From a virus: 21,393 nt of DNA. The stretch lies in the IMG/VR virus record IMGVR_UViG_3300037261_000005, positions 1 through 21,393 of that record; one strand, 5' to 3'. The translations under genes were made by a program, and so were the position numbers. Positions 1-20,893 of this stretch are shown piece after piece. Numbering within the stretch: position 1 is the first letter of the stretch; every line of letters begins with the position of its first letter. Under the pieces are notes generated by a model. The model was not told the origin of the DNA and searched no databases. It worked only from the letters and a program-made list of their open reading frames with translations.

Positions 1-987
1 GTGGACGGCCTCACGATGCGCTCGTTGTTCGTCATCTACACCGAGACGGAAGTCTGGGCGGCCGAGCAGACGGGCACGCAGGCCGTCTTCCAGTGGCAGC
101 AACTGTTCGGCAACGGCGGCCTGATCGCCCCGAACTGTGTCGTAGACGTTGACGGTGTCCACTACTGCTTCGGCCCGACCGACATCTACAAGCACGACGG
201 CACCACCAAGATATCAATCGTTGACAAGCGGAACCGTGACACGATTTACCGGAACCTGAACGTCAACGCCTCTGAAGCGTGCTTCGCCCAGTATATCCCG
301 CACCTAGACGCTGTCCTGTTCGGTTACCAGACGGGAGACACCTCGTTTTTCTTCAACAAGGCGGACAGGTGTAACGCAGGCGCCCTATACGATCTCACGA
401 ACGACACCTGGAGCTTCGTAAACCTCCCGAACGTCGCTGGGTTCGCCATGGCCAACACCGACTCGGTTTACACCTCCGCGTCTATCCCTGCGGGCGTCAC
501 GTCGGCCAACTGCGGCGGCTCCAGCTACGATCAGTTGAACACCCTTCGCAAGTCGGCTGTAGCTGTCTCTGCCTCGCTTAGTGGCCAGATTACGAACAGC
601 CGGCTCCTGGGCTACGACTATGTAACCCTGGGCTGGATGACATACGCCTGGGCGGCTGAAGTAAACCCGCCGATGTTTGTGGAGCGGACGGGCATAGCCC
701 TCGACCAAATGGGCTCAAATCTGACCACCTACAAGCGCATCAGGCGCCTGTTTCCTCAGGTTGAGATTTTCGACAACGTCCCGATACGCGTGGAGATCGG
801 CTACTCCAATACGCCCTCTGGTGTCGTCACCTGGGGTGCGCCGGTCAGCTTCAACCCCACGACGCAATACAAGGTGGACACCATTACAGGTGGCCGTTAC
901 CTCGCAGTTCGCTTCTCGACGGCTACGCTCGTGGACTTCGCGATTGTGGGCTTTGACTGTGATGTGAGCGACGGAGGCCATCGGTGA
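1..987 (+). CDS. Tail beta-propeller / DNA stabilisation-like protein, C-terminal part (5' truncated by window)
   Basis: The reading frame is already open at base 1, so the GTG there is probably not the true start and the N-terminal part lies outside the window. The 328 visible residues look like the C-terminal part of the P22 gp10-type stabilisation or tail-hub proteins of podoviruses. These form a beta-propeller that closes the portal after packaging and are usually about 450-700 residues long. Supporting features are the run GLIAPNCVVDVDGVHYCF followed by a KRNRDTIYRNLN segment (residues 40-90), and a later CNAGALYDLTNDTWSFVNLP blade-like strand pair. The rest is beta-rich with scattered aromatics and ends in DCDVSDGGHR. 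The stop overlaps the next gene's start (GTGA). The family call rests on resemblance only; a generic tail protein is the alternative. Confidence 0.6.
   Translation: MDGLTMRSLFVIYTETEVWAAEQTGTQAVFQWQQLFGNGGLIAPNCVVDVDGVHYCFGPTDIYKHDGTTKISIVDKRNRDTIYRNLNVNASEACFAQYIPHLDAVLFGYQTGDTSFFFNKADRCNAGALYDLTNDTWSFVNLPNVAGFAMANTDSVYTSASIPAGVTSANCGGSSYDQLNTLRKSAVAVSASLSGQITNSRLLGYDYVTLGWMTYAWAAEVNPPMFVERTGIALDQMGSNLTTYKRIRRLFPQVEIFDNVPIRVEIGYSNTPSGVVTWGAPVSFNPTTQYKVDTITGGRYLAVRFSTATLVDFAIVGFDCDVSDGGHR
973..977 (+). promoter_or_regulatory. Ribosome binding site GGAGG deciding a GTG start
   Basis: GGAGG lies six bases before the GTG at 984, inside the end of the upstream tail gene. It supports that GTG as the true start of the next gene and, with the GTGA overlap, suggests translational coupling. 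Confidence 0.6.
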
Positions 988-1298
988 CAGCCAACGTCGT
1001 CTTCTCAAGTATCCCCCCAACGCCCCCTCAGGGCGCTACACCGACACTAGAGGGGTCAGGGGCTCAGGTGTGGGCCGATCAGCGCGTCAAGGGCCTGATA
1101 CGGTCGGTCCTCGGGCTGATCCAGATGGCCGTCTGCAACGCCACGAAGGCGCCTACAAGTCCCGCAGACGGCACCACGAAGCTCTCCAGGTGGCCCTGGT
1201 GGCCCGTTTCAGGCCAGACGGCGGACGCGTGGGTTTTCTTCGACCAAGCCGCCGCTATCTGGCGCCTTACTTCGACAGCACCAACTTCAACACACTGA
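984..1298 (+). CDS. Small hypothetical phage protein (104 aa)
   Basis: I do not recognise the family. The protein has a Pro-rich N-terminus, a helix-like stretch near residues 30-52 (WADQRVKGLIRSVLGLIQMA) and a Trp-rich C-terminus (WPWWPVSG, WVFFDQAAAIWRL). There is no signal peptide or clear membrane segment. The GTG start overlaps the upstream tail gene stop by four bases and has a good GGAGG six bases upstream. The stop at 1296-1298 sits directly before the sulfotransferase gene, whose ribosome binding site overlaps it. Its place behind the tail protein suggests a minor virion or assembly role, which is inference. Confidence 0.7.
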   Translation: MTANVVFSSIPPTPPQGATPTLEGSGAQVWADQRVKGLIRSVLGLIQMAVCNATKAPTSPADGTTKLSRWPWWPVSGQTADAWVFFDQAAAIWRLTSTAPTSTH

Positions 1299-1303
1299 GG
1301 CCA

Positions 1304-1888
1304 ATGCCCCCTTTCGTCATTCTCGCACTCCCCCGTAGCCGAACAGCGTGGCTCAGCCACTTCCTGACATACGGCCCCTGGGTGTGCGGCCACGAAGAGT
1401 TGAGACACTGCCGCTCGCTGGAGGACGTAAAGTCCTGGCTTGATATGCCCTTCACAGGGACTTGCGAGACGGCCGCGGCACCTTACTGGCGGACGCTGCT
1501 GAAGCTGAGGCCTGATGTTCGAATTGTCGTCGTCCGAAGGGACGTTGAAGCGCCCTTTAAGTCGTTCCTGAAGATACCTGGGACGACGTGGGACGAGCCG
1601 GCCCTACGCGCGCAACTGCGCCATCTGGACTGCAAGCTAAACCAGATCGTGAAGCGTGTCCCGAACGTCCTTGAGGTTCAATTTGACGACCTCACAGACG
1701 AGGCCACCTGCGCGCGCATCTTCGAGTTCTGCTTAGAGATGCCTCACGCCTCTCCGCGCTGGCAGCAACTCGCCCCAATGAACATTCAATGTAACATGCC
1801 GATGATCCTGCGCTACTTCAGCACGCACATGCCGCAGTTGTTCAAGTTCTCGGCGCAAGTGAAGCAGGACACGCTAACATGGCTCTGA
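1304..1888 (+). CDS. Small PAPS-dependent sulfotransferase
   Basis: The 194-residue protein has the two cofactor signatures of the sulfotransferase superfamily, which moves sulfate from PAPS to a hydroxyl or amine acceptor. The 5'-phosphosulfate loop is at the N-terminus (ILALPRSRTAWLSHFL, residues 6-21). The 3'-phosphate motif is a strand followed by VVVRRDVEAPFKSFLK (residues 75-90), with an Arg pair and Ser87. A later segment, EVQFDDLTDEATCARIFEFC (124-143), matches the family's 'YEDL ... FLG' region. At 194 residues it is short for the family (about 200-300), but both motifs are intact. The open frame runs back to 1070, but that upstream part is Arg-rich and overlaps the previous gene in another frame, so I chose the ATG at 1304, just after GAGG. 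It overlaps the oxygenase gene by 10 bases. The acceptor is unknown. Confidence 0.8.
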   Translation: MPPFVILALPRSRTAWLSHFLTYGPWVCGHEELRHCRSLEDVKSWLDMPFTGTCETAAAPYWRTLLKLRPDVRIVVVRRDVEAPFKSFLKIPGTTWDEPALRAQLRHLDCKLNQIVKRVPNVLEVQFDDLTDEATCARIFEFCLEMPHASPRWQQLAPMNIQCNMPMILRYFSTHMPQLFKFSAQVKQDTLTWL

Positions 1889-2421
1889 TGACCAGGCTCA
1901 TGACGGGCCTGGATGTCGAGCCGCTGCTGAAGCAACTAGCTGCGCAGCCCCATCTGTGGTTTGAACGGCCGGACAGGCTCCTAGGCAATAGCCCTCACAG
2001 GGAAACACGCGACATCTGGGTTCGCTATATGGACCCTGCACTCTGCGCGGCCCACGACTTTACGACTCCGCATACGTCTATCTGGCTTCCTGGCGCGTCT
2101 TTAATACCAGCAGTGCGGGACCTTCACGCCGCCGTTACGCCTCCAGGCGCGGACATCGGCGGTGTGCTGATAACGCGCATCCCGCCGGGGAAACAAGTCT
2201 ACGCGCATCACGATCAAGGAACGTGGCACGCTGAGTGGTTCACGCACAAGGTGTGGATACCGCTGCGTGCCAACGACGAATGTATCAACCGGGTTGAACA
2301 CGAGCAAGCGGTTTGGCGACCGGGCGAGGCGTGGACCCACGACAACTTGCGCGTTCACTCGGTGGAGAACCACGGGGAAACGGAGCGGATTGTTCTGATC
2401 TGCTGCTTCAGAAAGGACTAA
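1879..2421 (+). CDS. 2-oxoglutarate/Fe(II)-dependent oxygenase (aspartyl hydroxylase-like)
   Basis: This 180-residue protein carries the double-stranded beta-helix oxygenase signature. The metal triad is HxD at H110/D112 (in VYAHHDQG) and a distal His160. R170 is well placed to bind 2-oxoglutarate, within RVHSVENHGETERIVLI, the usual H-x-V-x-N-x-G...R pattern. The HKVWIPLR strand at 123-130 recalls the 'R-x-H-x-P-L' strand of aspartyl/asparaginyl beta-hydroxylases and some lipid or peptide hydroxylases. Such enzymes couple 2-oxoglutarate decarboxylation to hydroxylation. The start overlaps the sulfotransferase gene by 10 bases; a second in-frame ATG at 1888 would give a one-base TGATG overlap. 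Either way translation is probably coupled, implying a joint task. The substrate cannot be read from the sequence. Confidence 0.78.
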   Translation: MALMTRLMTGLDVEPLLKQLAAQPHLWFERPDRLLGNSPHRETRDIWVRYMDPALCAAHDFTTPHTSIWLPGASLIPAVRDLHAAVTPPGADIGGVLITRIPPGKQVYAHHDQGTWHAEWFTHKVWIPLRANDECINRVEHEQAVWRPGEAWTHDNLRVHSVENHGETERIVLICCFRKD

Positions 2422-3931: not shown

Positions 3932-5914
3932 ATGCCTCTAGGAATGGGTCTCAGCTCAATCCAGCAGCTACAGGCGCTCGGCATCCTGCCACAAGAGCAG
4001 ACGCCGCCGGCGCCGCAGATGCCGCCTTCACCAACGCCGACACGGCCCCCCCTGGCCGCTTCCCCAATGGACGGTATGGGCGAGGCGTCTATGCCTATGC
4101 CGCCTGGGGCCACACCTACGGCCGCGCAGGCTCAGGCCGCTACGCCAGGAATGGGCAACATCGCCGGCGCGCTCATGCCTGCCTTAACGCAGTCTGACGA
4201 CGCGCGGCGCGCCGCCGCCGCGCCGGACGCAGCTTCCACGGTGCAAGCCTTGGACGCCGCCAAGGACGCTACAAGCCCACCTCAAGGCCTCTACGGTCCA
4301 CCTAACGCCCCAGCAGGCCCCCCGCCGCCCCCTCAAGGCCTCTACGGGCCTCCTCAGGGTGCTCCCGCTAGTGCTCCCGCCCAGACGGCTCCTACGCCGC
4401 CTGTGGCCCCTCCAGGGCCTGTAGCGCCCCCTCAGCCTATGACGGCGACACCGGACGCTTCCGCTCCGGAGCCTCAAGCTCCTCAGGCACCCCAAGGGCA
4501 AGCGCCGGCCAGTGGCGGGAAATACGCGCCAGCCCAAATCACGGCGGCGCTGATTAAAGCGGGCGTGCCACCTGACGACGCCAACACGTTGACGGCCGTT
4601 AGTGGCGCCGAAAGCAGCTACAACCCCAGCGCGGTCGGACCAAAGAACCGTAACGGCACAACCGACTACGGCCTGTTTCAGATTAACTCCGCCCATGGCG
4701 ACCTCAACCCCGCCAGCTTGCCCGGTGCTGACTTGGATACCCAGGCGCAAGCCGCGGCGGCGGTGTATAAAAAGGAAGGCCTGGGTGCTTGGAGCACGTA
4801 TAACGACGGCCGCTACAAGACCTTTATGGGGGGCACGCAGTTCGCAGGCCCCGGAGCGCCACCTTCGGGCTCACCTTCAGGCAACCTTCAGTCAGCCCAA
4901 AACGCCATGGGCGGCGGCCTCTCCAACCAAGCCGACGCCATCGGGATCAACCCCGACGAGATCATGAGCATGGCCACGAAGCTGGGCTACAAGCCTACGG
5001 ACAACCTGACCGGCCCCGGCGACAAATACATCGCGATGGGCCTGGGCATGATGGGCGGCCGGACAATGGCCGACTCGTTCAAGAACGCGGGCGAGGCATA
5101 CCAGGGTATGCGTGGGCAGGACATTGCCATGCGCGAGAAGCAGAACAGCAACGCAATGTCGATGGCTCAGGTGGGCATCAACGACGCCCGTATGAACCAA
5201 CAGATGCGGATGCAGGCGGCGCAGAACGCTCTGGGAAACAGGCGTGCGGATCAGCAGCAAGTCTACCAGAACGCCATGCTCGGCATCAAGCAGGAAGGTC
5301 AGGCGAACGCTACGGCGCGCGTTGACGGCACGGCCGCGGCCAATATCGCGGGCGCCAAGGAAGCCAGCGCGGACGTTCAGGAACTCATGGACGGCCAGCA
5401 GGCCGGCACCTTGCAGATGCAGAAGATTGACCAAGTCCAGAAGCTTCTCACCTCCGGTCAGGTATCCCCAGGACCGACAGGCGCCGCCCAGATGAAGACG
5501 GCGCTGGGCAACCTGCTCGGAGTGTCAATCAACGGCGCCGATCCGAACGCCAACCAGATGCTTCAGCAGGCGATCTCGTCAGCCCGAGGCAGTGGCATCA
5601 TGGGCAAGAACATGCGCACGCAGAAAGAGTTCGACACCGTCATGCAGGGGATGCTGAACTTCGACAAGCAGGGTCCCGAGGCGATGGGGCAGGTGCTCAA
5701 CTCGCTCCGGAACATCTCCGACCAGCGTATCCAGGCGGGGCAGGCTTTCTACAAGCTCCCTCAGGATCAGCAGACGAAGATGCGGCGTGACCCAGTCGTT
5801 GTCGGTAAGTTCATGCAGGATCAGGCCGACAAGTGGTCTCAGACCATGAACCAAGGCGGTGGCATGTATACCGCCAAGGACCCAACGACGGGCCTGGGCT
5901 TCACGATCCACTAA
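3932..5914 (+). CDS. Internal virion protein with lytic transglycosylase (SLT-like) domain (660 aa)
   Basis: Residues 1-195 are Pro/Ala/Gln-rich and probably disordered, with two copies of PQGLYGPP. Residues 196-300 form a lysozyme-like transglycosylase domain. The expected catalytic Glu is E227 in the AVSGAESSYNPSAVG context, then DYGLFQIN (245-252), and an A-A-V-Y-K-K...GAWSTYNDGRY segment (277-295) typical of the end of the fold. Such domains cut peptidoglycan between MurNAc and GlcNAc; in virions they open the wall locally during DNA entry, as in T7 gp16. Residues 310-660 are helical and Gln/Met/Ala-rich, probably structural. A GGGAGA ribosome binding site precedes the ATG. It lies between two other low-complexity virion proteins, which argues against a free endolysin. 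Confidence 0.75.
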   Translation: MPLGMGLSSIQQLQALGILPQEQTPPAPQMPPSPTPTRPPLAASPMDGMGEASMPMPPGATPTAAQAQAATPGMGNIAGALMPALTQSDDARRAAAAPDAASTVQALDAAKDATSPPQGLYGPPNAPAGPPPPPQGLYGPPQGAPASAPAQTAPTPPVAPPGPVAPPQPMTATPDASAPEPQAPQAPQGQAPASGGKYAPAQITAALIKAGVPPDDANTLTAVSGAESSYNPSAVGPKNRNGTTDYGLFQINSAHGDLNPASLPGADLDTQAQAAAAVYKKEGLGAWSTYNDGRYKTFMGGTQFAGPGAPPSGSPSGNLQSAQNAMGGGLSNQADAIGINPDEIMSMATKLGYKPTDNLTGPGDKYIAMGLGMMGGRTMADSFKNAGEAYQGMRGQDIAMREKQNSNAMSMAQVGINDARMNQQMRMQAAQNALGNRRADQQQVYQNAMLGIKQEGQANATARVDGTAAANIAGAKEASADVQELMDGQQAGTLQMQKIDQVQKLLTSGQVSPGPTGAAQMKTALGNLLGVSINGADPNANQMLQQAISSARGSGIMGKNMRTQKEFDTVMQGMLNFDKQGPEAMGQVLNSLRNISDQRIQAGQAFYKLPQDQQTKMRRDPVVVGKFMQDQADKWSQTMNQGGGMYTAKDPTTGLGFTIH

Positions 5915-5932: not shown

Positions 5933-8665
5933 ATGGCACAGATTTCCTTTGAGATGCCGGACGGCTCTTCCCAAACGGCTACAGTTGACGACGGGATCAA
6001 GTCGCTCCCACCAGAGCAGCAGGCTGCCTTCGTCAATCACATCCGCGAGACCGCTCTGGCCGCGAAGGGTGTGACACCGGGGGGCGAGAGCCCTAACGAC
6101 TCATTCGGTAATGATCTGAAAAGCGCTGCCGGGACCGCAATGTCCGATGCAGGCTCACTCGCGCAAGGCGCCGGGTCAGCATTAGGCAGCAGCACCCTTA
6201 CCGACGCGGGCTCATGGCTCCGCTCAAACGCCCCTCAGCCAGCCCCCGGATACACCGGGCGCGGCGGGGACTTCACCAAGGACATTGGAAATGCTCAGTA
6301 TCTTCGGGCTGGCGGTGACTTACTTCATGGGGCAGCTTCCGGCTCAGCCGAGTCCCTTGCTGAACTCGGTGCCGGAGCCGTTGGCGGCGCCATGGGTGGC
6401 CCCCTCGGAGCAGCAGCAGGCGCTGGCCTCGCTGGCGGAGCCTTCAGCCTCGGCCGTGGCGGTAGATTACGTGCTGGGCAGAACGCCGTAAGTGGCTCCG
6501 ACCTCGCAGCCGCAGCACCAAGCGCTGCCCTCGATGCAGGCGTTGACGCAGTTACCATGGGACGCCTCCCAGGCGGTATGCTTACCCGAGCCGGTGCGAT
6601 GGGCGCTGGAGGTGCAGTTCACTCAGCGAATGATCAGTATGACGCTACAGGCAGGATCGATCCCTCCCAAGTAGTCAACGACGCGGCCTCAGGCGCAGCG
6701 ACAGGCGCCCTTGCCGAGGCGGTTCCGGCCGCACGCAACGCCGGCAAGGGCGCCGTCGAGAACATCATGTCTCGTTCGGCCAAGTATCAGCCCGGCAGTG
6801 ACGCTTCGGCTAACGTCGGCGCGCGCGTGATGCAGGACTTGGAGGCGCGCAAGGCGAACGCCTCAAACGTCCCCGGTGCGCCTAGCGATTGGAACAGCAT
6901 CGCAAACAGCCTGAAGAGCGACTACAGCGTAGACGCCCGGCAGCGCATCGCGGACATTAGCGACAAGAACGCGCGAATGGTGGCTACAGCGGCCTACGAG
7001 CAGGCCCTCAGGCACAACAACACCACCAGTGATGACCTGACGTCAGCACTCGGCCAGCTTGACAGACTGGATCACGGCCTTTCGGACGAGCAGGCAGCGG
7101 GCCTCAAAGACCGCCTGATGGACCTCAACGCCATCTCCCGCCAGAGCTTCAAGGGCTCCAACGTGGGGCCGCTCCAGAGCTTCCTCGGGGCCGCTGGACG
7201 CTACTCAGGGATCGGCGCCGGCTTTGCGGCTGACGGTGGCGTGGGCGCCGCTATCGGCCTCCTCGCGGGCCACAGTCCCATGGGCAACGTCGGCAGCAAG
7301 ATCGGTGGTGGCATCGGCTCCCTCGGGGACCGTATGCTGGGAACTTCCGTTCCCCCGGCAATCCTCGCCGGGCTGGCCGCCAAGCGGTATCTGAAGGGCG
7401 CCGACGTGGCCCCGGTAACGCCGTTTCAGGCAACCCCAGAACCGGCACCGCCGGCGCCCGAGCCTACTGGCCCCTACGGGCCGTCAAGCAAGGCCCCTGC
7501 CGGGGGCTTCGGGATCATAGGCAGGCAGCAACTGGCGTCCGAGTTGCTCTCCCGGCCGGGTGGCCTGACTTCCCCCTTGGCTCCTATTCCGAGGGTTGCT
7601 CCACCGGAAGCCCCTGGCCTGACTTCGCCCTTGGCTCCTATTCCCAGGGTTGCCCCTCCAGGCGCCCCTGGCCTGACTTCGCCAGTGGTAGCTCCCCCTA
7701 GGGTTGCCCCTCCAGGCGCCCCTGGCCTGACTTCGCCAGTGGTAGCTCCCCCTAGGGTTGCCCCTCCAGGCGCCCCTGGCCTGACTTCGCCAGTGGTAGC
7801 TCCCCCTAGGGTTGCTCCACCGGAAGCCCCTGGCCTGACTTCGCCAGTGGTAGCTCCCCCTAGGGTAGCTCCTCCAGGCGCCGAAGCGCCGCCCTCCAGC
7901 CCCTACGGGAACCCAGGCAAGGCCCCTCCCTTCGTTCGCGTCAAGGTAGACGCGCCCGAGGAACCGGCCATTAATCCGGACACGGGCAACCCCGTGGACC
8001 CCATTCCAGTCAACACGAGGATCAAGGGAAAGGCTGCGAGACTAGCACAAGCCACCGCCGCGCAGGATGCGCCGCAACCGGCCTTTAAAGAGGACACGGC
8101 GGCGACGATAGCGCAGGCTATGGCGGCTGATCCGACGCTGGCAGCAGCGGCACGGACGCAGAGCCCCGGCTCAATCTACCTACAGCGCGGCCTGGGTATC
8201 AGCCACGACGAGGCGATTGACCTCGCCCATCGCTCAGAGGCGGCCGGCGTCATCCCGCAGGGGGCGGCCAGTGTCGTTTCCAACGTCTCCGCCACACCGT
8301 CACACCCGTCCGATCTGGCGGCCATTAAGGACTTCCACAGGCTGTCCCAAGGCTTCCCTAAGGCCACCACCGGCCCCCAGCTAGACGCCCAAGGCCAGCC
8401 TATACGCTCCGTTCCGGCCTACCAAGCGGCCCACGGCGCGTATCACAGCACGGCCCAGGCGCTCGCCCAGCAGGCTGAAGCAGCGTTCCCCGGAGCAGGG
8501 GGCGCAGCGGTCCTCCAGGTGGCGGCGACGCACGGGGCAACCCGCGCTGAGACGGTGGCGTTGAAACGGGCGGAAGCTCGTCAGCTACTCGACAAGCTCC
8601 CACCAGAACAGCGTTCAGCGGCCTCCGCGTATCTCCTGGCCGACAGCCTCATTAACCACGGATGA
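5933..8665 (+). CDS. Large probable ejection/internal virion protein with 18-residue Pro-rich tandem repeat (910 aa)
   Basis: The N-terminus (MAQISFEMPDG...) resembles the short beta segment opening many phage virion proteins. Several Gly/Ala-rich hydrophobic stretches follow (about residues 135-175 and 410-470) that could contact or cross a membrane. Residues 250-400 are helical and polar. Residues 543-650 are six copies of an 18-residue Pro-rich unit (consensus PGLTSPVVAPPRVAPPGA), flanked by related PYG...KAP motifs. The C-terminal 200 residues are helical, with no recognised catalytic site. Size, position after the transglycosylase protein and membrane-active-looking segments fit the large DNA-ejection protein of podoviruses. 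The ATG is preceded by GGAAGGG. The function is inferred from context. Confidence 0.55.
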   Translation: MAQISFEMPDGSSQTATVDDGIKSLPPEQQAAFVNHIRETALAAKGVTPGGESPNDSFGNDLKSAAGTAMSDAGSLAQGAGSALGSSTLTDAGSWLRSNAPQPAPGYTGRGGDFTKDIGNAQYLRAGGDLLHGAASGSAESLAELGAGAVGGAMGGPLGAAAGAGLAGGAFSLGRGGRLRAGQNAVSGSDLAAAAPSAALDAGVDAVTMGRLPGGMLTRAGAMGAGGAVHSANDQYDATGRIDPSQVVNDAASGAATGALAEAVPAARNAGKGAVENIMSRSAKYQPGSDASANVGARVMQDLEARKANASNVPGAPSDWNSIANSLKSDYSVDARQRIADISDKNARMVATAAYEQALRHNNTTSDDLTSALGQLDRLDHGLSDEQAAGLKDRLMDLNAISRQSFKGSNVGPLQSFLGAAGRYSGIGAGFAADGGVGAAIGLLAGHSPMGNVGSKIGGGIGSLGDRMLGTSVPPAILAGLAAKRYLKGADVAPVTPFQATPEPAPPAPEPTGPYGPSSKAPAGGFGIIGRQQLASELLSRPGGLTSPLAPIPRVAPPEAPGLTSPLAPIPRVAPPGAPGLTSPVVAPPRVAPPGAPGLTSPVVAPPRVAPPGAPGLTSPVVAPPRVAPPEAPGLTSPVVAPPRVAPPGAEAPPSSPYGNPGKAPPFVRVKVDAPEEPAINPDTGNPVDPIPVNTRIKGKAARLAQATAAQDAPQPAFKEDTAATIAQAMAADPTLAAAARTQSPGSIYLQRGLGISHDEAIDLAHRSEAAGVIPQGAASVVSNVSATPSHPSDLAAIKDFHRLSQGFPKATTGPQLDAQGQPIRSVPAYQAAHGAYHSTAQALAQQAEAAFPGAGGAAVLQVAATHGATRAETVALKRAEARQLLDKLPPEQRSAASAYLLADSLINHG
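7561..7884 (+). repeat. Six tandem 54-bp in-frame repeats
   Basis: Units start at 7561, 7615, 7669, 7723, 7777 and 7831, each opening with TGGCCTGACTTC. Units 3 and 4 are identical. Units 1 and 2 carry an older-looking variant (LAPIP instead of VVAPP). Units 1 and 5 share a variant end (GCTCCACCGGAAGCCCC) that encodes PPEA rather than PPGA. This pattern indicates recent duplication and exchange between units. The repeat encodes a Pro-rich linker in the large virion protein. Confidence 0.95.
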
Positions 8666-9663: not shown

Positions 9664-11284
9664 AGAGAAGGCCAAGGCTGCGCGTAAACGGCTCCGGGAT
9701 GATTTCCGATACTGGAGCATGAATTGTTGGTCAATCAGGACCAAAGAGGCGAAGATCGTCACCATGCGGCTCAATCGAGCCCAGGAGAGGCTGCTGGAGT
9801 GCTGCACGCAGCAACTTGAGGACAGGGGCTATGTCCGCCTGATAGTTCTCAAGGGCCGGCAGATGGGCTCCTCGACGTTCTTTGAAGCGTTCCTTTATCA
9901 TTGGGTGTCTCAACGAGAAGCCCAGAAGGCCCTTGTTGTGGCCCACGATAAGGAAGCCACCAAGGTCCTCTTCACGATGACGCGCCGCGGCCACGACAGG
10001 ATGCCCGAAGCCCTCAAGCCCCATACGGCCGCCGCCAGCACCACTGAGCTTGTCTTTGACAAGTTGGACAGCGCCTACCGCGTGGCTACGGCTGGCGGCG
10101 ACGGCATTGTGCGGGGTGATACCTTGACCGCGACGCACCTCTCGGAGGTCGCGTGGTGGCCTAAGGGCTCAGCCCTTGATAACTACTCAGGCCTCATGGA
10201 CGCCATGCCTACGGGCGTAGCTGCGAGCGGCACGGTGGCGTTTGAAGAGAGCACGGCTAACGGCTTCAACATATTTTGGGACCACTGCCAAGCAGCGCGT
10301 GGACTTGCGCGTGACGCGAATGGCGTGCGAATTGACAGCGATTGGAAGTTCGTCTTCTTGCCGTGGTTCTGGGATACCACTTGCGAAGCCAAAGTCCCCG
10401 AGGGGTTCGAGCGGTCCCCAGGTGAGATCGAACTCGCAGAGAAAATGCTCGCAGAGTTCGGTGACGTGTTGACTGACGCCCACTTGCAATTTCGCCGATT
10501 GAAGATCGCAGAGAAGGGGACGGACCTCTTCATGCAAGAATATCCCTGCACGCCTGACGAAGCGTTCTTAGCTTCCGGCGCGCCGGTTTTCGACGCTGGC
10601 AAGATACAAGCGCAGTTAGAGAAGCAGATCAAGCCGATTGCACTTAAGGTGTTGACGCCGGCCTTGAAGTGGGAGGACAGCCGCCTAGGGGAACTTAAGT
10701 GTTACCTTCCCCACGACCCAGCGGAAACCTACTACATCGGCGGGGACGTCGGCTTCGGTGTCCGCAAGGACGCCTCGGTGTTCCAGGTGCTCGACAGCAA
10801 GAAGCGTCAGGCAGCCGTGTGGCGCTCTAACCGCATTGGCGCGGACTGGTTTGGGACTGTCGGCGCGTGCTTGGCGAGCTACTTCAACGACGCTTTCCTC
10901 TGCATCGAGCGCAACGGCCCAGGCATCCTGACGAACCGTGTCGTCCACATAGACATGGCCTACCGGAACGTTTACCGCGAGTTCCTGTATGACAAGATCA
11001 CGGACACTGAGACGGAAGTTGTCGGGTTCGGCACGACCGTCCGCAGCAAGCCGTTGGTGATTGAGGAACTCCGCGCCGCCATCCTCGGCAGCGAGATTGA
11101 GATTTACGACGAGACGACGCTCCACGAACTGATGCGCTTCATCGTCAGTGAGTCGGGGCGATACGAGGCCGAACAAGGCCATCACGACGACACGGTGCTT
11201 GCACTGGCGTTCGTTAACCACGTTCACGAGGGTGAAGTGACTGCGATCGTCAACCAGGAAAGCTGGTATACGCGCATCGAGTAG
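9653..11284 (+). CDS. terL: Terminase large subunit (packaging ATPase/nuclease)
   Basis: The 543-residue protein has both terminase domains. In the ATPase part, Walker A is KGRQMGSST (67-75), Walker B with its catalytic Glu is at THLSEVAWW (E165), and the coupling motif EESTANG is at 198-204. In the RNase H-like nuclease part, acidic residues lie at D365 (YYIGGDVGFG), E419 (FLCIERNG) and D512/D513 (QGHHDDTVLALAF). It drives DNA into the procapsid through the portal and cuts the concatemer. The TTG start at 9653 is chosen because the N-terminal segment RKRLRDDFRYWSMNCWSIRT matches the helix usual in this family before the adenine-binding LNRAQ; the first ATG (9719) would remove part of it. The gene overlaps the small-subunit candidate by 11 bases. 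Confidence 0.95.
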   Translation: MTTEEKAKAARKRLRDDFRYWSMNCWSIRTKEAKIVTMRLNRAQERLLECCTQQLEDRGYVRLIVLKGRQMGSSTFFEAFLYHWVSQREAQKALVVAHDKEATKVLFTMTRRGHDRMPEALKPHTAAASTTELVFDKLDSAYRVATAGGDGIVRGDTLTATHLSEVAWWPKGSALDNYSGLMDAMPTGVAASGTVAFEESTANGFNIFWDHCQAARGLARDANGVRIDSDWKFVFLPWFWDTTCEAKVPEGFERSPGEIELAEKMLAEFGDVLTDAHLQFRRLKIAEKGTDLFMQEYPCTPDEAFLASGAPVFDAGKIQAQLEKQIKPIALKVLTPALKWEDSRLGELKCYLPHDPAETYYIGGDVGFGVRKDASVFQVLDSKKRQAAVWRSNRIGADWFGTVGACLASYFNDAFLCIERNGPGILTNRVVHIDMAYRNVYREFLYDKITDTETEVVGFGTTVRSKPLVIEELRAAILGSEIEIYDETTLHELMRFIVSESGRYEAEQGHHDDTVLALAFVNHVHEGEVTAIVNQESWYTRIE

Positions 11285-11314
11285 TCCACGGCTCCGCACA
11301 CAGGACAACCATAC

Positions 11315-13411
11315 ATGGCTGAACGAAAAGAGCCGGCGCTGGACGACGATCGTATCTGCGCGCTCATTGACCACGGGATCGGACAGAGCGTCGGGTTCAG
11401 CGAAAGTAAGCTGAGCAAGGAGCGCGAGAGGGTCCAACTCTTCTACGACGGTGAGCGCCCCCTCAAGGCCCACGCAGGCGACTCAGGATACGTTTCAGAC
11501 GACGTCTGGATCGGCGTCGAGAGCATGAAGGCTCAGCTCCTCGACGTCTTTGCGGCCAACGCAAGGCCCGTGAAGTTTACCCCGACGTCGGCTGAAGATG
11601 TCCCTGCGGCTAAAATCCGCACCGACTATGTTACGCACGTCATCATGGACCAAAATCCCGGCTACGAGATCATGCGGGACACCATCGAAGAGGGCCTGAA
11701 GTCCCGCGCGGGTATCTGCAAGGTCTGGTGGGACGTCAAGTCCAAATGGGAATACACAGAACTTAGTGACGTCGCTGAGCAGGACCTCGTCCAGTGGCTC
11801 GCCCAGAACCCCGACGTGGAAGTCCACGAGAAGGAGACCAGGGCCGGCGACGGCGCGGTCTTCAAACGGGTCAGCCTGAAGCAGCGTAAGGACGTCTCGC
11901 AGGCGCGCATTAAGCAGCTTGCTGGCGAAGAGTTCGGCATCAGCCCGATGGCCGAGGACCTTGAGACGGCGGACCTTACCTTCGACCGTCACGAGATGAC
12001 TGTCAGCGACCTCCTGAAGGCCGGCTACGACAAGGACAAGGTCGCTGACCTTCAGTCTAATGATCGTCTGTGGCTGGCCACGGAGCCCGAGAAGATTGCG
12101 CGCTTCCAAGGCACAGACGACATGATCGGCACGAAGGTGCTGGAGGACGGCCAGGAGGCGCGCCGCACCGTCATGGTCTACGAGTGCTACCTGGAGCTAG
12201 ACATTGACGGCACGAAAGAGAGTCAGCTCTTCAAGGTAACCAAAGTCGGGGACACTATCCTCGACAAAGAGCCTGTGGACGAGAAGCCCTACATCGCCTT
12301 CGTCCCGCTCCCCCGCCCTAATGCCTTCTGGGGGGCCAACTTCGCGAAGCGCCTGGAGCACATCCAGACCGCGAAAACCTACCTGCAACGCTCCGTCGTC
12401 AACCATTCGCTCCACACGAACAACCCTAAGACGCTCGTCCGGTCAGGCACTCTGGCCAACCCTCGGGAGCTGATGGAGAACCGCTTCGGCGGCATCGTCA
12501 ACGTGAAGGACGTCAATGGCGTCGTCCCGATGCAACAGTCCGCGTTGAACCCGTTCGTGCTGCAAGTCGTGCAGATGCTTGACCAGCAGAAGCAGGAACT
12601 CACCGGGCAGTCGTCCCTAAGCCAAGGCCTCAACCCCGACGCGGTGTCCAAGCAGAACTCCAGCGACATGGTCCATGAGCTGATTTCAGTCAGCCAGCTT
12701 CGCACGAAGATCGTCGCCCGGAACTTCGCTGAAGGCTTCCTACGGCCGCTCTACACCCGCATCTACCAGCTTGTCCTCCGCAACGAGGACCGCAAGAAGA
12801 TCGTCGCGGTGTCCGGCCAGTGGGTCCACGTAGACCCCTCTCAGTGGCCCGACGAGTGTCAGGCCCAGGTTAACTTCGCCCTTGGCTACGGGGAAGCTGA
12901 CAAGGAAGTGGCCAAGTGGGGGACGATTGTCCGGGCGATGACGTCCGACCCCACGCTGGCCCCGTGGTTCACCCCACAGGAGCACCACTACTGTGCCACA
13001 CGGGCGCTTGACGCCTGGGGCATAGCTGACAGCGCTCAGGTGCTCAGGCCGCTCCAGAGCCCCATCCAGCCCCCGCCAGACCCCCTGCACGCGGCTGAGG
13101 TCAGCATGAAGAACGCTGACGCCGCTGCCAAGAACGCCCAGGCGCAAACCAGCGTCCAGGCCCAGCAGCTCGCCTCTCAGAAGATGCAGAACGAGCATCA
13201 ACTGGAGATGACGAAGTTGCAGCTTGAAGTGAAGAAGCTTGAGCTGGAGATGGCGAAGATACAGCAGACCGGCGGACAGCATGACGAGAAGCTCCAGATT
13301 GAGAAGGACAAGCTCGCTCATCTGGTGACCGTAGACGCTGCGGAAATAGCGCTGCAATACGCGGCCCAGCAGCAAGACAAGCTCACTGCGAACGCAGAAC
13401 CGAAGGGTTAG
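11315..13411 (+). CDS. Portal protein (P22-like, 698 aa)
   Basis: The portal forms the dodecameric ring at one capsid vertex through which DNA enters and leaves. Length, position after TerL and sequence features fit P22-type portals. There is an acidic N-terminus with RERVQLFYDGERP, then DDVWIGVESMKAQLLDVF near residue 70. The core contains KVWWDVKSKWEY, and the stem/wing region is helical with VPLPRPNAFWGANFAKRLEHIQTAKTYL worded as in portals. The C-terminal 105 residues form a Gln/Lys/Glu/Leu coiled coil (EHQLEMTKLQLEVKKLELEM), possibly the barrel that extends into the head in P22. The ATG at 11315 has AGGACA about eight bases upstream. The next gene begins two bases after the stop. Confidence 0.88.
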   Translation: MAERKEPALDDDRICALIDHGIGQSVGFSESKLSKERERVQLFYDGERPLKAHAGDSGYVSDDVWIGVESMKAQLLDVFAANARPVKFTPTSAEDVPAAKIRTDYVTHVIMDQNPGYEIMRDTIEEGLKSRAGICKVWWDVKSKWEYTELSDVAEQDLVQWLAQNPDVEVHEKETRAGDGAVFKRVSLKQRKDVSQARIKQLAGEEFGISPMAEDLETADLTFDRHEMTVSDLLKAGYDKDKVADLQSNDRLWLATEPEKIARFQGTDDMIGTKVLEDGQEARRTVMVYECYLELDIDGTKESQLFKVTKVGDTILDKEPVDEKPYIAFVPLPRPNAFWGANFAKRLEHIQTAKTYLQRSVVNHSLHTNNPKTLVRSGTLANPRELMENRFGGIVNVKDVNGVVPMQQSALNPFVLQVVQMLDQQKQELTGQSSLSQGLNPDAVSKQNSSDMVHELISVSQLRTKIVARNFAEGFLRPLYTRIYQLVLRNEDRKKIVAVSGQWVHVDPSQWPDECQAQVNFALGYGEADKEVAKWGTIVRAMTSDPTLAPWFTPQEHHYCATRALDAWGIADSAQVLRPLQSPIQPPPDPLHAAEVSMKNADAAAKNAQAQTSVQAQQLASQKMQNEHQLEMTKLQLEVKKLELEMAKIQQTGGQHDEKLQIEKDKLAHLVTVDAAEIALQYAAQQQDKLTANAEPKG

Positions 13412-17775: not shown

Positions 17776-18210
17776 ATGGCTCAGACTAAAGAAGAGCGCG
17801 TCGCCCGTAACAAAGTGTGGCGCCAGGAGAACCCTGAAAAGGTGCGCTCCTGCTACACTAAGTCCGCGCGCGCGCGGTATCGGACACAGAAGGGACGCGC
17901 GTCTGCGTTGTGGTATATGGCGCGGACGCGCGCCAAGAAAGCCGACGTTCTATTCATGATCACGAAAGAATGGATCGAGGAACGCCTCATAGGGGGCGTG
18001 TGCGAGGCGACAGGATTACCCTTAGACATAGGCCTAATAAAGGGGCCTTACGCCCCTTCGCTAGATCGCATTGAACCGTCCGCGGGATATACTCCAGACA
18101 ACTGCCGGATGACCATTACCGCGTTCAATCTAGGCAAGAACCGCTGGCCCGATGACGTGCTAGCTCACTGGGCGAAAGCCTTCCTTCAACAACACGACTC
18201 AGCACACTAG
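17776..18210 (+). CDS. HNH-like endonuclease, probably free-standing mobile gene (144 aa)
   Basis: The N-terminal 55 residues are strongly basic (Arg/Lys/Ala), suited to DNA contact. The C-terminal part has the layout of phage HNH-like nucleases: GGVCEATGLPLD (C76, T79, G80), then APSLDRIEPSAGYTPDNCR (S95-R111, with D97, R98, N109), then a later Asn118 in TAFNLGKNRW. The classic first His is not seen; the SLDRI variant is common in these small phage proteins but leaves activity uncertain. The gene sits alone between capsid and adaptor genes, as homing-type genes often do. Upstream it has only a weak ribosome binding site (GCGGAT). A Cys-rich zinc pair is not obvious. Confidence 0.58.
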   Translation: MAQTKEERVARNKVWRQENPEKVRSCYTKSARARYRTQKGRASALWYMARTRAKKADVLFMITKEWIEERLIGGVCEATGLPLDIGLIKGPYAPSLDRIEPSAGYTPDNCRMTITAFNLGKNRWPDDVLAHWAKAFLQQHDSAH

Positions 18211-18845: not shown

Positions 18846-20291
18846 ATGACCGACACAGTCACTTCTACGCCTGCTGGCTTCTTCCAGATCGGACAAGTGA
18901 ACAACACCACCGTTGAGGACCTCGTCTCCGCGGTAAACGGCGCGCTGACCATCTCAGACGAGGTGGCAGCGGCCCTCACGGCGGCCAACACAGCGACAGC
19001 GGCGGCACAGGCAGCTCAGACCGCCTCTGCGGCGTCTGTGGCCTCCATTGCCAGCTCAGTGACGGCCGCCGCCGCCAGTGCCACCTCAGCGACCAACAGC
19101 GCCACTACGGCCACCACAGGGGCCACTAACGCGGCCACCAGTGCCACCTCAGCCGGCACCAGTGCGACTGCCGCGGCTGCAAGCTCCTCTACGGCCACCT
19201 CAGAAGCCTCTACGGCCACCACGGGAGCCAGCAACGCCTCCACCTCGGCCACCGCCGCGGCCACCTCAGCTACTGCCGCAGCCTCCAGCGCCACCTCAGC
19301 GGCCACCAGTGCCACCTCCGCTACAGCCTCGGCCACCACTGCCGCGGGCTATGCGATCAACTCCGGCACCGTCACCGCGGGCGGCGCGCTCGGCCTCGTC
19401 CTGACCAACGGCACCACCATTGCCGTGGGGGGCACCTTCGCCACGGCCTCTGCGGCAGCGGGCTACGGGCTCAACACGGGCACCGTGACGGGTGTGGGCA
19501 AGCTCAATCTGATCCTGACCAACGGCACCACTGTCACAGCCGCCGGGCTGGTGACGCCGGCGGAGCGCGGCGCTCTGGGTGGGCTGATCACGTCCCGCAA
19601 CGGCGGCACACCAAACACCCAGATTGACATCTCGGCTGGCTACGCGATGGACGAGGTGGCCCAGGCGGGCTACATCACGTCGTCCGGGGTGCTGACGATC
19701 AACGCTGCGACAACCGGCGCCAATGGCCTCGACAGTGGCTCCCTGGCGAACTCGACGGTCTACCACGTCTTCGTCATCGGCAAGACAGACGGCACTGTTG
19801 CCGGCTTCATGTCCACCAGCCTGACGCCTACGTTACCTACAGGCTACACGCTCCGCCGCCGCATCGGCTCGGTGCGCACAGACAGCAGCGCCCACTTCCT
19901 CGCATACGTGCAGCTAGGGGACGAGTTCCTGCTGGCGGCGGGTATAGCGGACGAGGCGGCCCTTGGCGTCACGAACTCCGCTACCCTTCTGGCGTTGTCT
20001 GTCCCCACGGGTATCCAGGTAAACGCGCTCTTTAACGGGGAAATGATCTCCGACACAGCGGCCACCCTGGGGCTGTTTACGAGCCCTGACCAGACTTCCA
20101 CAGCCGCAAACACGCCAGCAGGAAACTTTCAACTCGACGTAGCTGTAGCCCTCGGGGCTGACGCCGCGCAGTTGAACATCCGCACCAACACGAGCGGGCA
20201 GGTGCGCTTCATCTCGTCCATTGCCTCGCCGCACTCCACGTTGAGCATTGTGACGCAGGGTTGGGTAGACACCCGCGGTAGGTTCGCATGA
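18846..20291 (+). CDS. Tail fibre protein with Ala/Ser/Thr-rich shaft (481 aa)
   Basis: Residues 1-45 form a short N-terminal domain likely to attach to the virion. Residues 48-167 consist almost only of Ala, Ser and Thr with Gly/Asn, the composition of trimeric shafts in lambda-like side fibres. Residues 168-205 and 206-240 are two copies of a beta module (GYxxNxGTVTxxGxLxLxLTNGTT). Residues 255-365 match a domain frequent in phage fibres: NGLDSGSLANSTVYHVFVIG, LPTGYTLRRRIGSVRTDSS and FLAYVQLGDEFL. The last 115 residues form the distal beta domain, the likely receptor-binding part. The stop overlaps the SGNH hydrolase start (ATGA). Receptor recognition is inferred. Confidence 0.8.
   Translation: MTDTVTSTPAGFFQIGQVNNTTVEDLVSAVNGALTISDEVAAALTAANTATAAAQAAQTASAASVASIASSVTAAAASATSATNSATTATTGATNAATSATSAGTSATAAAASSSTATSEASTATTGASNASTSATAAATSATAAASSATSAATSATSATASATTAAGYAINSGTVTAGGALGLVLTNGTTIAVGGTFATASAAAGYGLNTGTVTGVGKLNLILTNGTTVTAAGLVTPAERGALGGLITSRNGGTPNTQIDISAGYAMDEVAQAGYITSSGVLTINAATTGANGLDSGSLANSTVYHVFVIGKTDGTVAGFMSTSLTPTLPTGYTLRRRIGSVRTDSSAHFLAYVQLGDEFLLAAGIADEAALGVTNSATLLALSVPTGIQVNALFNGEMISDTAATLGLFTSPDQTSTAANTPAGNFQLDVAVALGADAAQLNIRTNTSGQVRFISSIASPHSTLSIVTQGWVDTRGRFA
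18987..19346 (+). repeat. Low-complexity Ala/Ser/Thr codon repeat in the fibre shaft
   Basis: GCCACCTCAG-type blocks recur at irregular spacing (about 19079, 19142, 19195, 19258, 19291) and encode Ala-Thr-Ser-Ala strings. This could allow length change by recombination or slippage. Confidence 0.8.
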
Positions 20292-20893
20292 GCCTCTATT
20301 GGGACGGCTTGGTAGCCAGTGACGGCGTGCAAGCGCTGATCAACGGCACCGGGCACCCCGCGGTGATCGGGGACAGCATTACCTACTACATGACGCCCCA
20401 CTGGACTGGCTTAGGGCCGTGCAACGGGCCTTATGCCAACCTAGGGTTCCCTGGGGCCATGCTAGAGGACATGTGCGACTACGCAGTGCCTATGCTGGCC
20501 AAGGTAAAGCCCTCCGCAGCCATCATCCTGATTGGCATCAACAACGCACTCGACGCGCAGAACAGCCGACCAAACCCGTTCATTAACGGGTTGGGGGTGA
20601 TCATCCCGGCGCTGCGCGTGTGGACGAACAAGATAGCGCTAGCGACGATCCTTCCAATGGAGAAGGGCATCCCAGGTATTGCGGATGCTGCCTCTATCCA
20701 GCCGTTCGTAATCAACCTCAACGGGATCATCAGGCAGGCAGCTACCGTTGAAGGCGTGTGCCTGCTGGAGACCAACGCGGCCTTCGCTGGCCCTGACGGC
20801 TTCGCGCTCCCAGGCAACACCGTGGACAGCGTGCATCCGTCTGCGGCTGGGTTTGCAGCGCTCAAGCCTCTTTACGACGGATTTCTCTCATGA
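20288..20893 (+). CDS. SGNH/GDSL-family hydrolase (201 aa)
   Basis: The four SGNH blocks are recognisable. Block I is VIGDSIT with nucleophile Ser30, block II is NLGFPGAM (G56), block III is ILIGINNAL (N85), and block V is DSVHPSAAGF (D180 and H183). The order and spacing fit a single-domain esterase or deacetylase of about 200 residues. Such enzymes remove acyl groups from lipids or polysaccharides; several phages carry them on tail fibres or tailspikes to de-acetylate capsule or O-antigen. The start overlaps the fibre stop (ATGA), so a tail-associated surface-modifying role is the best inference. There is no signal peptide. A lysis-related esterase is the alternative, since two membrane proteins follow. 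Substrate is not predictable. Confidence 0.8.
   Translation: MSLYWDGLVASDGVQALINGTGHPAVIGDSITYYMTPHWTGLGPCNGPYANLGFPGAMLEDMCDYAVPMLAKVKPSAAIILIGINNALDAQNSRPNPFINGLGVIIPALRVWTNKIALATILPMEKGIPGIADAASIQPFVINLNGIIRQAATVEGVCLLETNAAFAGPDGFALPGNTVDSVHPSAAGFAALKPLYDGFLS

Follow-up and report, generated by a model that had tools for sequence, protein, structure and literature searches.

A sulfotransferase-hydroxylase gene pair beside a DNA-ejection gene: a possible version of a combinatorial enzyme locus in podophages

Ejection proteins form a transient channel that carries phage DNA across the cell envelope. The gene orders around them are 26-14-7-20-16 in P22 and 12-13-14-15-16 in T7, and in both phages the slot immediately before the ejection gene holds a small gene: gene 14 in P22 (PF11039, DUF2824, "virion stability factor"), the last before gp7, and gene 13 in T7 (PF11090, "probable scaffold protein"), the last before gp14. 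In the virus DNA analyzed here (the window, a stretch of 21,393 bases that is probably a fragment of a virus genome), the order is tail-(small ORF)-ST-HY-ejection-SLT. The same slot is occupied by a sulfotransferase gene (ST) and a 2-oxoglutarate (2OG)-Fe(II) hydroxylase gene (HY), which belong to families and folds other than those of P22 gp14 and T7 gp13.

Accessory enzymes of the same broad classes have been described in phages. 2OG oxygenases were reported in cyanophages (PMC3037559), and the function of phage sulfotransferases has been called unclear (PMC10580990). Unlike the window, however, the phage enzymes in the accessible text of these two papers are described neither as a pair nor in a fixed slot beside the ejection genes. 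The earlier note on this DNA knew of no phage system with an ST-HY pair, and none was found in the open-access literature. The same literature yielded no combinatorial enzyme locus in the ejection slot; as only open-access sources were covered, both results are weak evidence of novelty. Our analysis suggests that such a locus at the ejection module was previously unrecognized.

The coordinates given for the overlapping ST and HY genes in the earlier note are exact, including the 10-base overlap at 1879-1888, and their setting between tail and ejection genes is borne out by a phrog_3287 protein upstream and a putative ejection gene downstream (Table 1). The HY start at position 1879 is supported by a well-spaced AGGA motif lying 9 bases before it; an alternative in-frame ATG at position 1888 would shrink the overlap to 1 base (TGATG). 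Overlap of this kind likely leads to translational coupling of the two genes. The putative ejection protein is 54% identical over 394 amino acids to its homologue in the related locus L098 (7066-8580); its own match to phrog_4287 ("DNA ejection protein") is weak (0.01), and that of the L098 homologue reaches 3e-12. Other features of the window include a 54-bp tandem repeat at 7592-7882 (5.4 copies of a Pro-rich 18-amino-acid unit) in the third ejection-module protein. At 17776-18210, a putative HNH-like endonuclease was noted by eye (C..TG.P...PSLDRI.P..GY..DNC; no Pfam match at 0.01). A GDSL lipase/acylhydrolase at 20288-20893 (PF13472, 5e-12), which adjoins the tail fiber gene, is possibly a receptor-modifying esterase.

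Table 1. Genes and sequence elements of the window from the tail gene to the third ejection-module gene
Feature	Coordinates	Strand	Basis
Virion structural/tail protein, truncated 5' by the contig	1..987	+	phrog_3287, E=2.7e-49; 53% identical to L098 639-2300
Small late protein in the gap between tail gene and ST	984..1298	+	ORF; no Pfam or PHROG match
Sulfotransferase (ST), unfused, ATG start, 194 aa	1304..1888	+	Pfam, motifs, AlphaFold, ST tree
AGGA, Shine-Dalgarno-like, 9 bases ahead of the HY start	1866..1869	+	Sequence
Overlap of ST end and HY start, 10 bases, ATGGCTCTGA	1879..1888	+	Sequence
2OG-Fe(II) hydroxylase (HY), Asp_Arg_Hydrox PF05118, ATG start, 180 aa	1879..2421	+	Pfam, motifs, AlphaFold
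Putative DNA-ejection protein, N-terminus MPWSVAAAA	2426..3919	+	Homology to L098 7066-8580
Second ejection-module protein, lysozyme-like SLT domain	3932..5914	+	PF18896, E=2.9e-10
Third large ejection-module protein, Pro-rich repeats	5933..8665	+	Homology to third L098 gene; repeats

Both enzyme assignments of the earlier note agree with Pfam profile searches, intact motifs and predicted folds. At the level of sequence and structural model, ST is confirmed as a PAPS-type sulfotransferase with intact fold and cofactor motifs. It scored 25.1 bits against PF17784 (Sulfotransfer_4), above the cut-off of 22.8, and 26.4 bits against PF13469 (Sulfotransfer_3), 0.6 below the cut-off of 27. Six positions of the 5'-phosphosulfate loop LPRSRTAW (L9, P10, R11, R13, T14 and W16) are invariant in 47/47 ST homologues, C28 and H30 are essentially so, and the 3'-phosphate-binding pair, eight residues apart, is present as R79 in 46/47 and as S87 in 45/47. 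The AlphaFold model (pLDDT 95.4) retrieved human tyrosylprotein sulfotransferase at the top rank in Foldseek (E 1.6e-5); VIA-align, whose list is likewise headed by sulfotransferases, matched it to a Synechococcus olefin-synthase sulfotransferase (Z 12.7, 161 residues, 3.3 Å) and to TPST1 (Z 12.4), with a Z of about 12 for TPST2 as well. Because P-loop kinases reach a Z of about 11 against the same model, the fold alone leaves the PAPS cofactor unsettled, and the motifs discriminate better. TPST1/2 and the bacterial PAPS sulfotransferases of PF13469 and PF17784 have the P-loop fold, the PAPS loop and the 3'-phosphate Arg/Ser in common with the window ST, but are only 11 to 18% identical to it, and the window ST is much shorter. 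A PDB sequence search with ST returned only weak or spurious matches, designed helix bundles among them, and a search of plasmids found no match. One divergent ST, in the ST-HY pair of L029 (4288-4797), is without the 3'-phosphate Arg. A distant relative of ST is encoded by Clavibacter phage 33 (L005, 3977-4558), where the start as annotated omits the P-loop; its gene lies apart from the structural genes, a few genes past an annotated cysteine dioxygenase.

HY is likewise confirmed, from profile, motif and model evidence, as a 2OG-Fe(II) hydroxylase with intact fold and catalytic motifs. It scored 50.3 bits against PF05118 (cut-off 22.6); the iron-binding triad (H110-x-D112, H160) is conserved in 33/33 homologues and the 2OG-binding R170 in 32/33. 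The AlphaFold model (pLDDT 96.2) has a double-stranded beta-helix fold, with proline 3-hydroxylase (Z 16.2, 147 residues, 2.4 Å), L-proline cis-4-hydroxylase (Z 15.0, 169 residues, 2.8 Å) and AspH (Z about 14) as structural neighbors in VIA-align. The profile search also matched L-proline cis-4-hydroxylase (E=7.8e-13). These three enzymes share the beta-helix fold, the HxD...H motif and the Arg with the window HY. However, identity to the proline hydroxylases and AspH is at most 20%, and HY is shorter than most relatives. Assignment as the lipid A hydroxylase LpxO was rejected (29.7 bits against an NCBIfam equivalog cut-off of 500), and the score for the lipid hydroxylase OlsC (14.8 bits) was far under its cut-off. 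Upstream of ST, L006 (130-600) and L008 (2862-3332) each contain another HY-like ORF, which is shorter and has WQE in place of HxD; judging by this replacement, these copies are probably pseudoenzymes beside an active HY.

Alignment-based IMG/VR scans provided the loci for comparison, with 80 of the 100 confirmed HY loci and 80 of the 281 confirmed ST loci analyzed. Single-sequence scans of viral contigs with either ST or HY as the query gave no match, as default patterns missed the conserved loops. Ordinary gene calls in GC-rich contigs conceal some GNAT genes; hence, loci were tallied with HMMs on all ORFs, which gave 165 loci with truncated loci counted. On the ST side these comprised 73 ST-GNAT fusions, 5 ST followed by HY, 2 ST flanked by HY on both sides, 2 ST-GNAT fusions followed by HY and 6 with ST only; on the HY side, 48 had HY followed by GNAT, 14 HY followed by cupin, 14 HY only and 1 an HY-GNAT fusion. 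The typical ST ORF, of about 350 amino acids, consists of ST plus a GNAT domain (Acetyltransf_1 and phrog_1249 matches), and this arrangement without HY accounts for 73/88 ST loci. Pseudomonas phage PfAn1 encodes a GNAT similar to this fused domain as a free-standing protein after HY. A counterpart of the ST-GNAT fusions is the HY-GNAT fusion of L080 (739-1836), a single ORF of 365 amino acids.

A search for the same adjacent pair, as proposed in the earlier note, recovered it in eight other viral contigs, so that with the window nine loci contain both ST and HY. In L007, L010, L011, L029, L140 and L144, ST lies directly upstream of HY, and the two overlap by 4 to 17 bases; in L006 and L008 the two genes adjoin, and two HY-like genes flank ST. 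The occurrence of the pair in eight further contigs argues that it is not due to chance. The ST phylogeny places the window ST within the ST-GNAT fusions, where its neighbor is a protein encoded on a contig of Azospirillum rugosum (L099/L168); over the whole tree there are at least four changes in the presence of HY and at least two in GNAT fusion. L098, which has an ST-GNAT fusion and no HY, encodes a tail protein, an ST and an ejection protein that are 53 to 54% identical to those of the window. These relationships are most simply read as loss of the GNAT domain and gain of HY in the lineage of the window. In terms of gene content, the window HY takes the place of the GNAT domain borne by related STs.

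The earlier note had put forward a two-step pathway in which ST sulfates the same hydroxyl that HY creates. In favor of such a pathway, the ST tree shows at least four gains or regains of the adjacent pair, nine loci contain it, and L006 and L008 have two HY-like genes around ST. However, HY is absent within about 6 kb in 79/88 ST loci, and ST is missing from most HY loci; neither enzyme requires the other, and HY partners GNAT or cupin more often than ST. Hydroxylation followed by sulfation does not hold as a rule, and as an explanation of the locus we judge it highly improbable. It is possible in the few phages with ST followed by HY, but is not needed to account for the pair. As most loci have one gene without the other, ST and HY are independent of each other, and their distribution suggests modules of a single locus that can replace or be added to each other.

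All cassettes have neck or tail genes upstream (e.g., phrog_578, head closure) and mostly a small DNA-ejection gene downstream. The downstream protein matched a DNA-ejection or internal-virion PHROG in 51 of the 69 loci scanned, and further internal proteins with transglycosylase domains often come next. Since profile-to-profile comparisons of the downstream ejection proteins were mostly not significant, these proteins cannot be called one family. In DC33-type phages, HY followed by GNAT is flanked by the terminase and portal genes and adjoins a gene for a small protein that is at most a candidate ejection protein. For one contig, L002 (MW202665), the product annotated as "putative terL" (10771-12609) appears by eye to be a P22-type portal protein.

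The slot was also surveyed in reverse, with a subset drawn from 34 ejection proteins as the query, which biases the result toward that subfamily. Among the 80 contigs recovered, 27 had HY followed by GNAT, 22 cupin, 4 GNAT, 3 an ST-GNAT fusion and 1 ST followed by GNAT. Where the 23 contigs without an HMM match were translated, a small gene was present, in part with DUF2824 matches; others resemble GNAT or T7-gp13-like proteins by eye. In L317, for example, the slot occupant is a member of DUF2824, the P22 gp14 family (27.0 bits, cut-off 25), next to a homologous ejection protein. Of the isolated phages, 11 of 13, mostly of Vibrio, carry a cupin gene in the slot. The slot gene of the isolated phages L365-L376 and of L023 (5332-5691) is labeled "short tail fiber" or "tail fiber adhesin" (phrog_12032/24280); that of L023 matches Cupin_2 weakly (7.6e-5), and the tail-fiber label on this cupin-like gene may be a misannotation. 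Homology of the locus GNAT to T7 gp13 or P22 gp14 was not significant. The f1 family, found beside phrog_598 ejection proteins, aligned to P22 gp14 with a probability of 63% (E 7e-5); the value for the T7-like f2 family was 18%. The slot contents are interchangeable, comprising ST-GNAT, HY followed by GNAT, HY followed by cupin, ST followed by HY, cupin, GNAT and DUF2824. Overall, as far as sequence comparison can tell, the slot is regularly filled by a small, mostly enzyme-like gene, and its occupants are non-homologous.

By itself, the slot position may mark a tolerant insertion site in the late operon. In that case the enzymes could be host-directed accessory functions whose targets are glycans of the host surface, lipids or metabolites, with roles such as superinfection exclusion or lysogen fitness. 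The diverse and often swapped slot contents are consistent with this explanation, as are the weak resemblance of HY to LpxO and OlsC (far under the cut-offs), the location of the Clavibacter phage 33 relative away from structural genes and the presence of ST relatives, probably in prophages, in the genomes of Alphaproteobacteria including Azospirillum rugosum. However, the locus keeps to the ejection gene, with overlapping late genes, across very divergent phages, and the ejection-protein query recovered these enzymes again, not a random assortment of genes. We therefore regard host-directed activity as unlikely.

Two further explanations were weighed. The first, that the occupants are assembly chaperones or scaffolds which retain enzyme folds and no longer need catalysis, is suggested by the "virion stability factor" and "probable scaffold protein" annotations of the same-slot genes in P22 and T7 and by degenerate members such as the upstream HY copies of L006 and L008 and the ST of L029. 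A pure scaffold would need no catalytic residues, yet these are invariant or nearly so in divergent homologues (33/33 for HY and 46/47 for ST), which makes this explanation very unlikely. The second, in which the enzymes accompany the internal proteins during packaging or ejection and exert their activity after entry into a new host cell, also appears distinctly unlikely. T7 gp13 is annotated as an internal virion protein, and phage GNATs can modify host targets early in infection (Rac of a phiKMV-like phage, as cited in PMC10504331). In contrast, the text on the T7-like phage phiPsa17 lists homologues of gp14-16, and no gp13 homologue, among the detected virion proteins (PMC4517105), and ST and HY are small and do not have the Ala/Gly-rich N-termini of ejection proteins.

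The N-terminus of the ejection protein varies with the enzyme content of the locus. In loci with GNAT, residue 2 of the ejection protein is Gly, Val, Ala or Ser in 110/116 cases and Pro in 1/116, whereas Pro2 is found in 23/31 loci that have HY or ST and no GNAT. For L012 and L013, the ejection-protein starts were assigned manually, and some start codons are uncertain. Six of the eight non-Pro2 exceptions (L036, L063, L071, L072, L075 and L076) form one group in which the downstream gene is only putatively an ejection gene, L141, L348 and L363 combine GNAT with Met-Pro, and Met-Ala or Met-Ser starts are frequent in cupin-only loci. The difference is also seen between close relatives, as the ejection protein starts with MGLGAAG in L098 (ST-GNAT) and with MPWSVAA in the window (ST followed by HY), the two proteins being about 54% identical. 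Fisher's exact test gave 4e-19 for the association of Pro2 with GNAT on raw counts; tree-aware tests were left with two to five independent contrasts and did not reach significance. The correlation is striking but phylogenetically thin, and we treat it as a lead and not as a result. A comparison of Tyr, Pro and Asn composition of the ejection proteins by architecture showed nothing clear.

Such a pattern could arise if the locus were a dedicated N-terminal modification system for the ejection protein, in which GNAT acetylates Gly, Val or Ala, HY hydroxylates Pro and ST sulfates. Removal of Met would leave Gly or Val, usable by an N-terminal acetyltransferase; from Met-Pro it would leave Pro, a poor acetyltransferase substrate that a proline-hydroxylase-like enzyme might use. 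However, HY is also found with Val and Gly N-termini and so cannot act on N-terminal Pro alone. This specific form of the idea is doubtful. If it were true, the swappable enzyme set would let a phage tune the membrane-inserting end of its ejection protein.

In its general form, we propose that the ST-HY pair represents one configuration of a combinatorial enzyme locus in the ejection module of P22/T7-type podophages that covalently modifies ejection proteins, a proposal in which our confidence is about evenly balanced. The enzymes would be made together with the late virion proteins and would modify one or more of these before packaging. Of the candidate targets listed in the earlier note (a virion protein, a host surface glycan or a small molecule), a virion protein is favored, specifically the adjacent small ejection protein, because the slot is fixed and the N-terminus of that protein varies with the enzymes. 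ST, whose top structural neighbors include the peptide-acting tyrosylprotein sulfotransferases, would transfer the sulfate of PAPS onto a hydroxyl of Tyr, Ser or Thr. HY, whose nearest solved relatives are proline hydroxylases, would hydroxylate an amino acid side chain. Modification would enable the ejection protein to be correctly packed, released or inserted into the envelope, with a presumed role in ejection. The presence of modifying enzymes in the slot of P22 gene 14 and T7 gene 13 offers a testable idea of that gene's role. If the proposal is true, the few recognized steps of podophage genome delivery would come to include post-translational modification, and phage sulfotransferases would gain a function.
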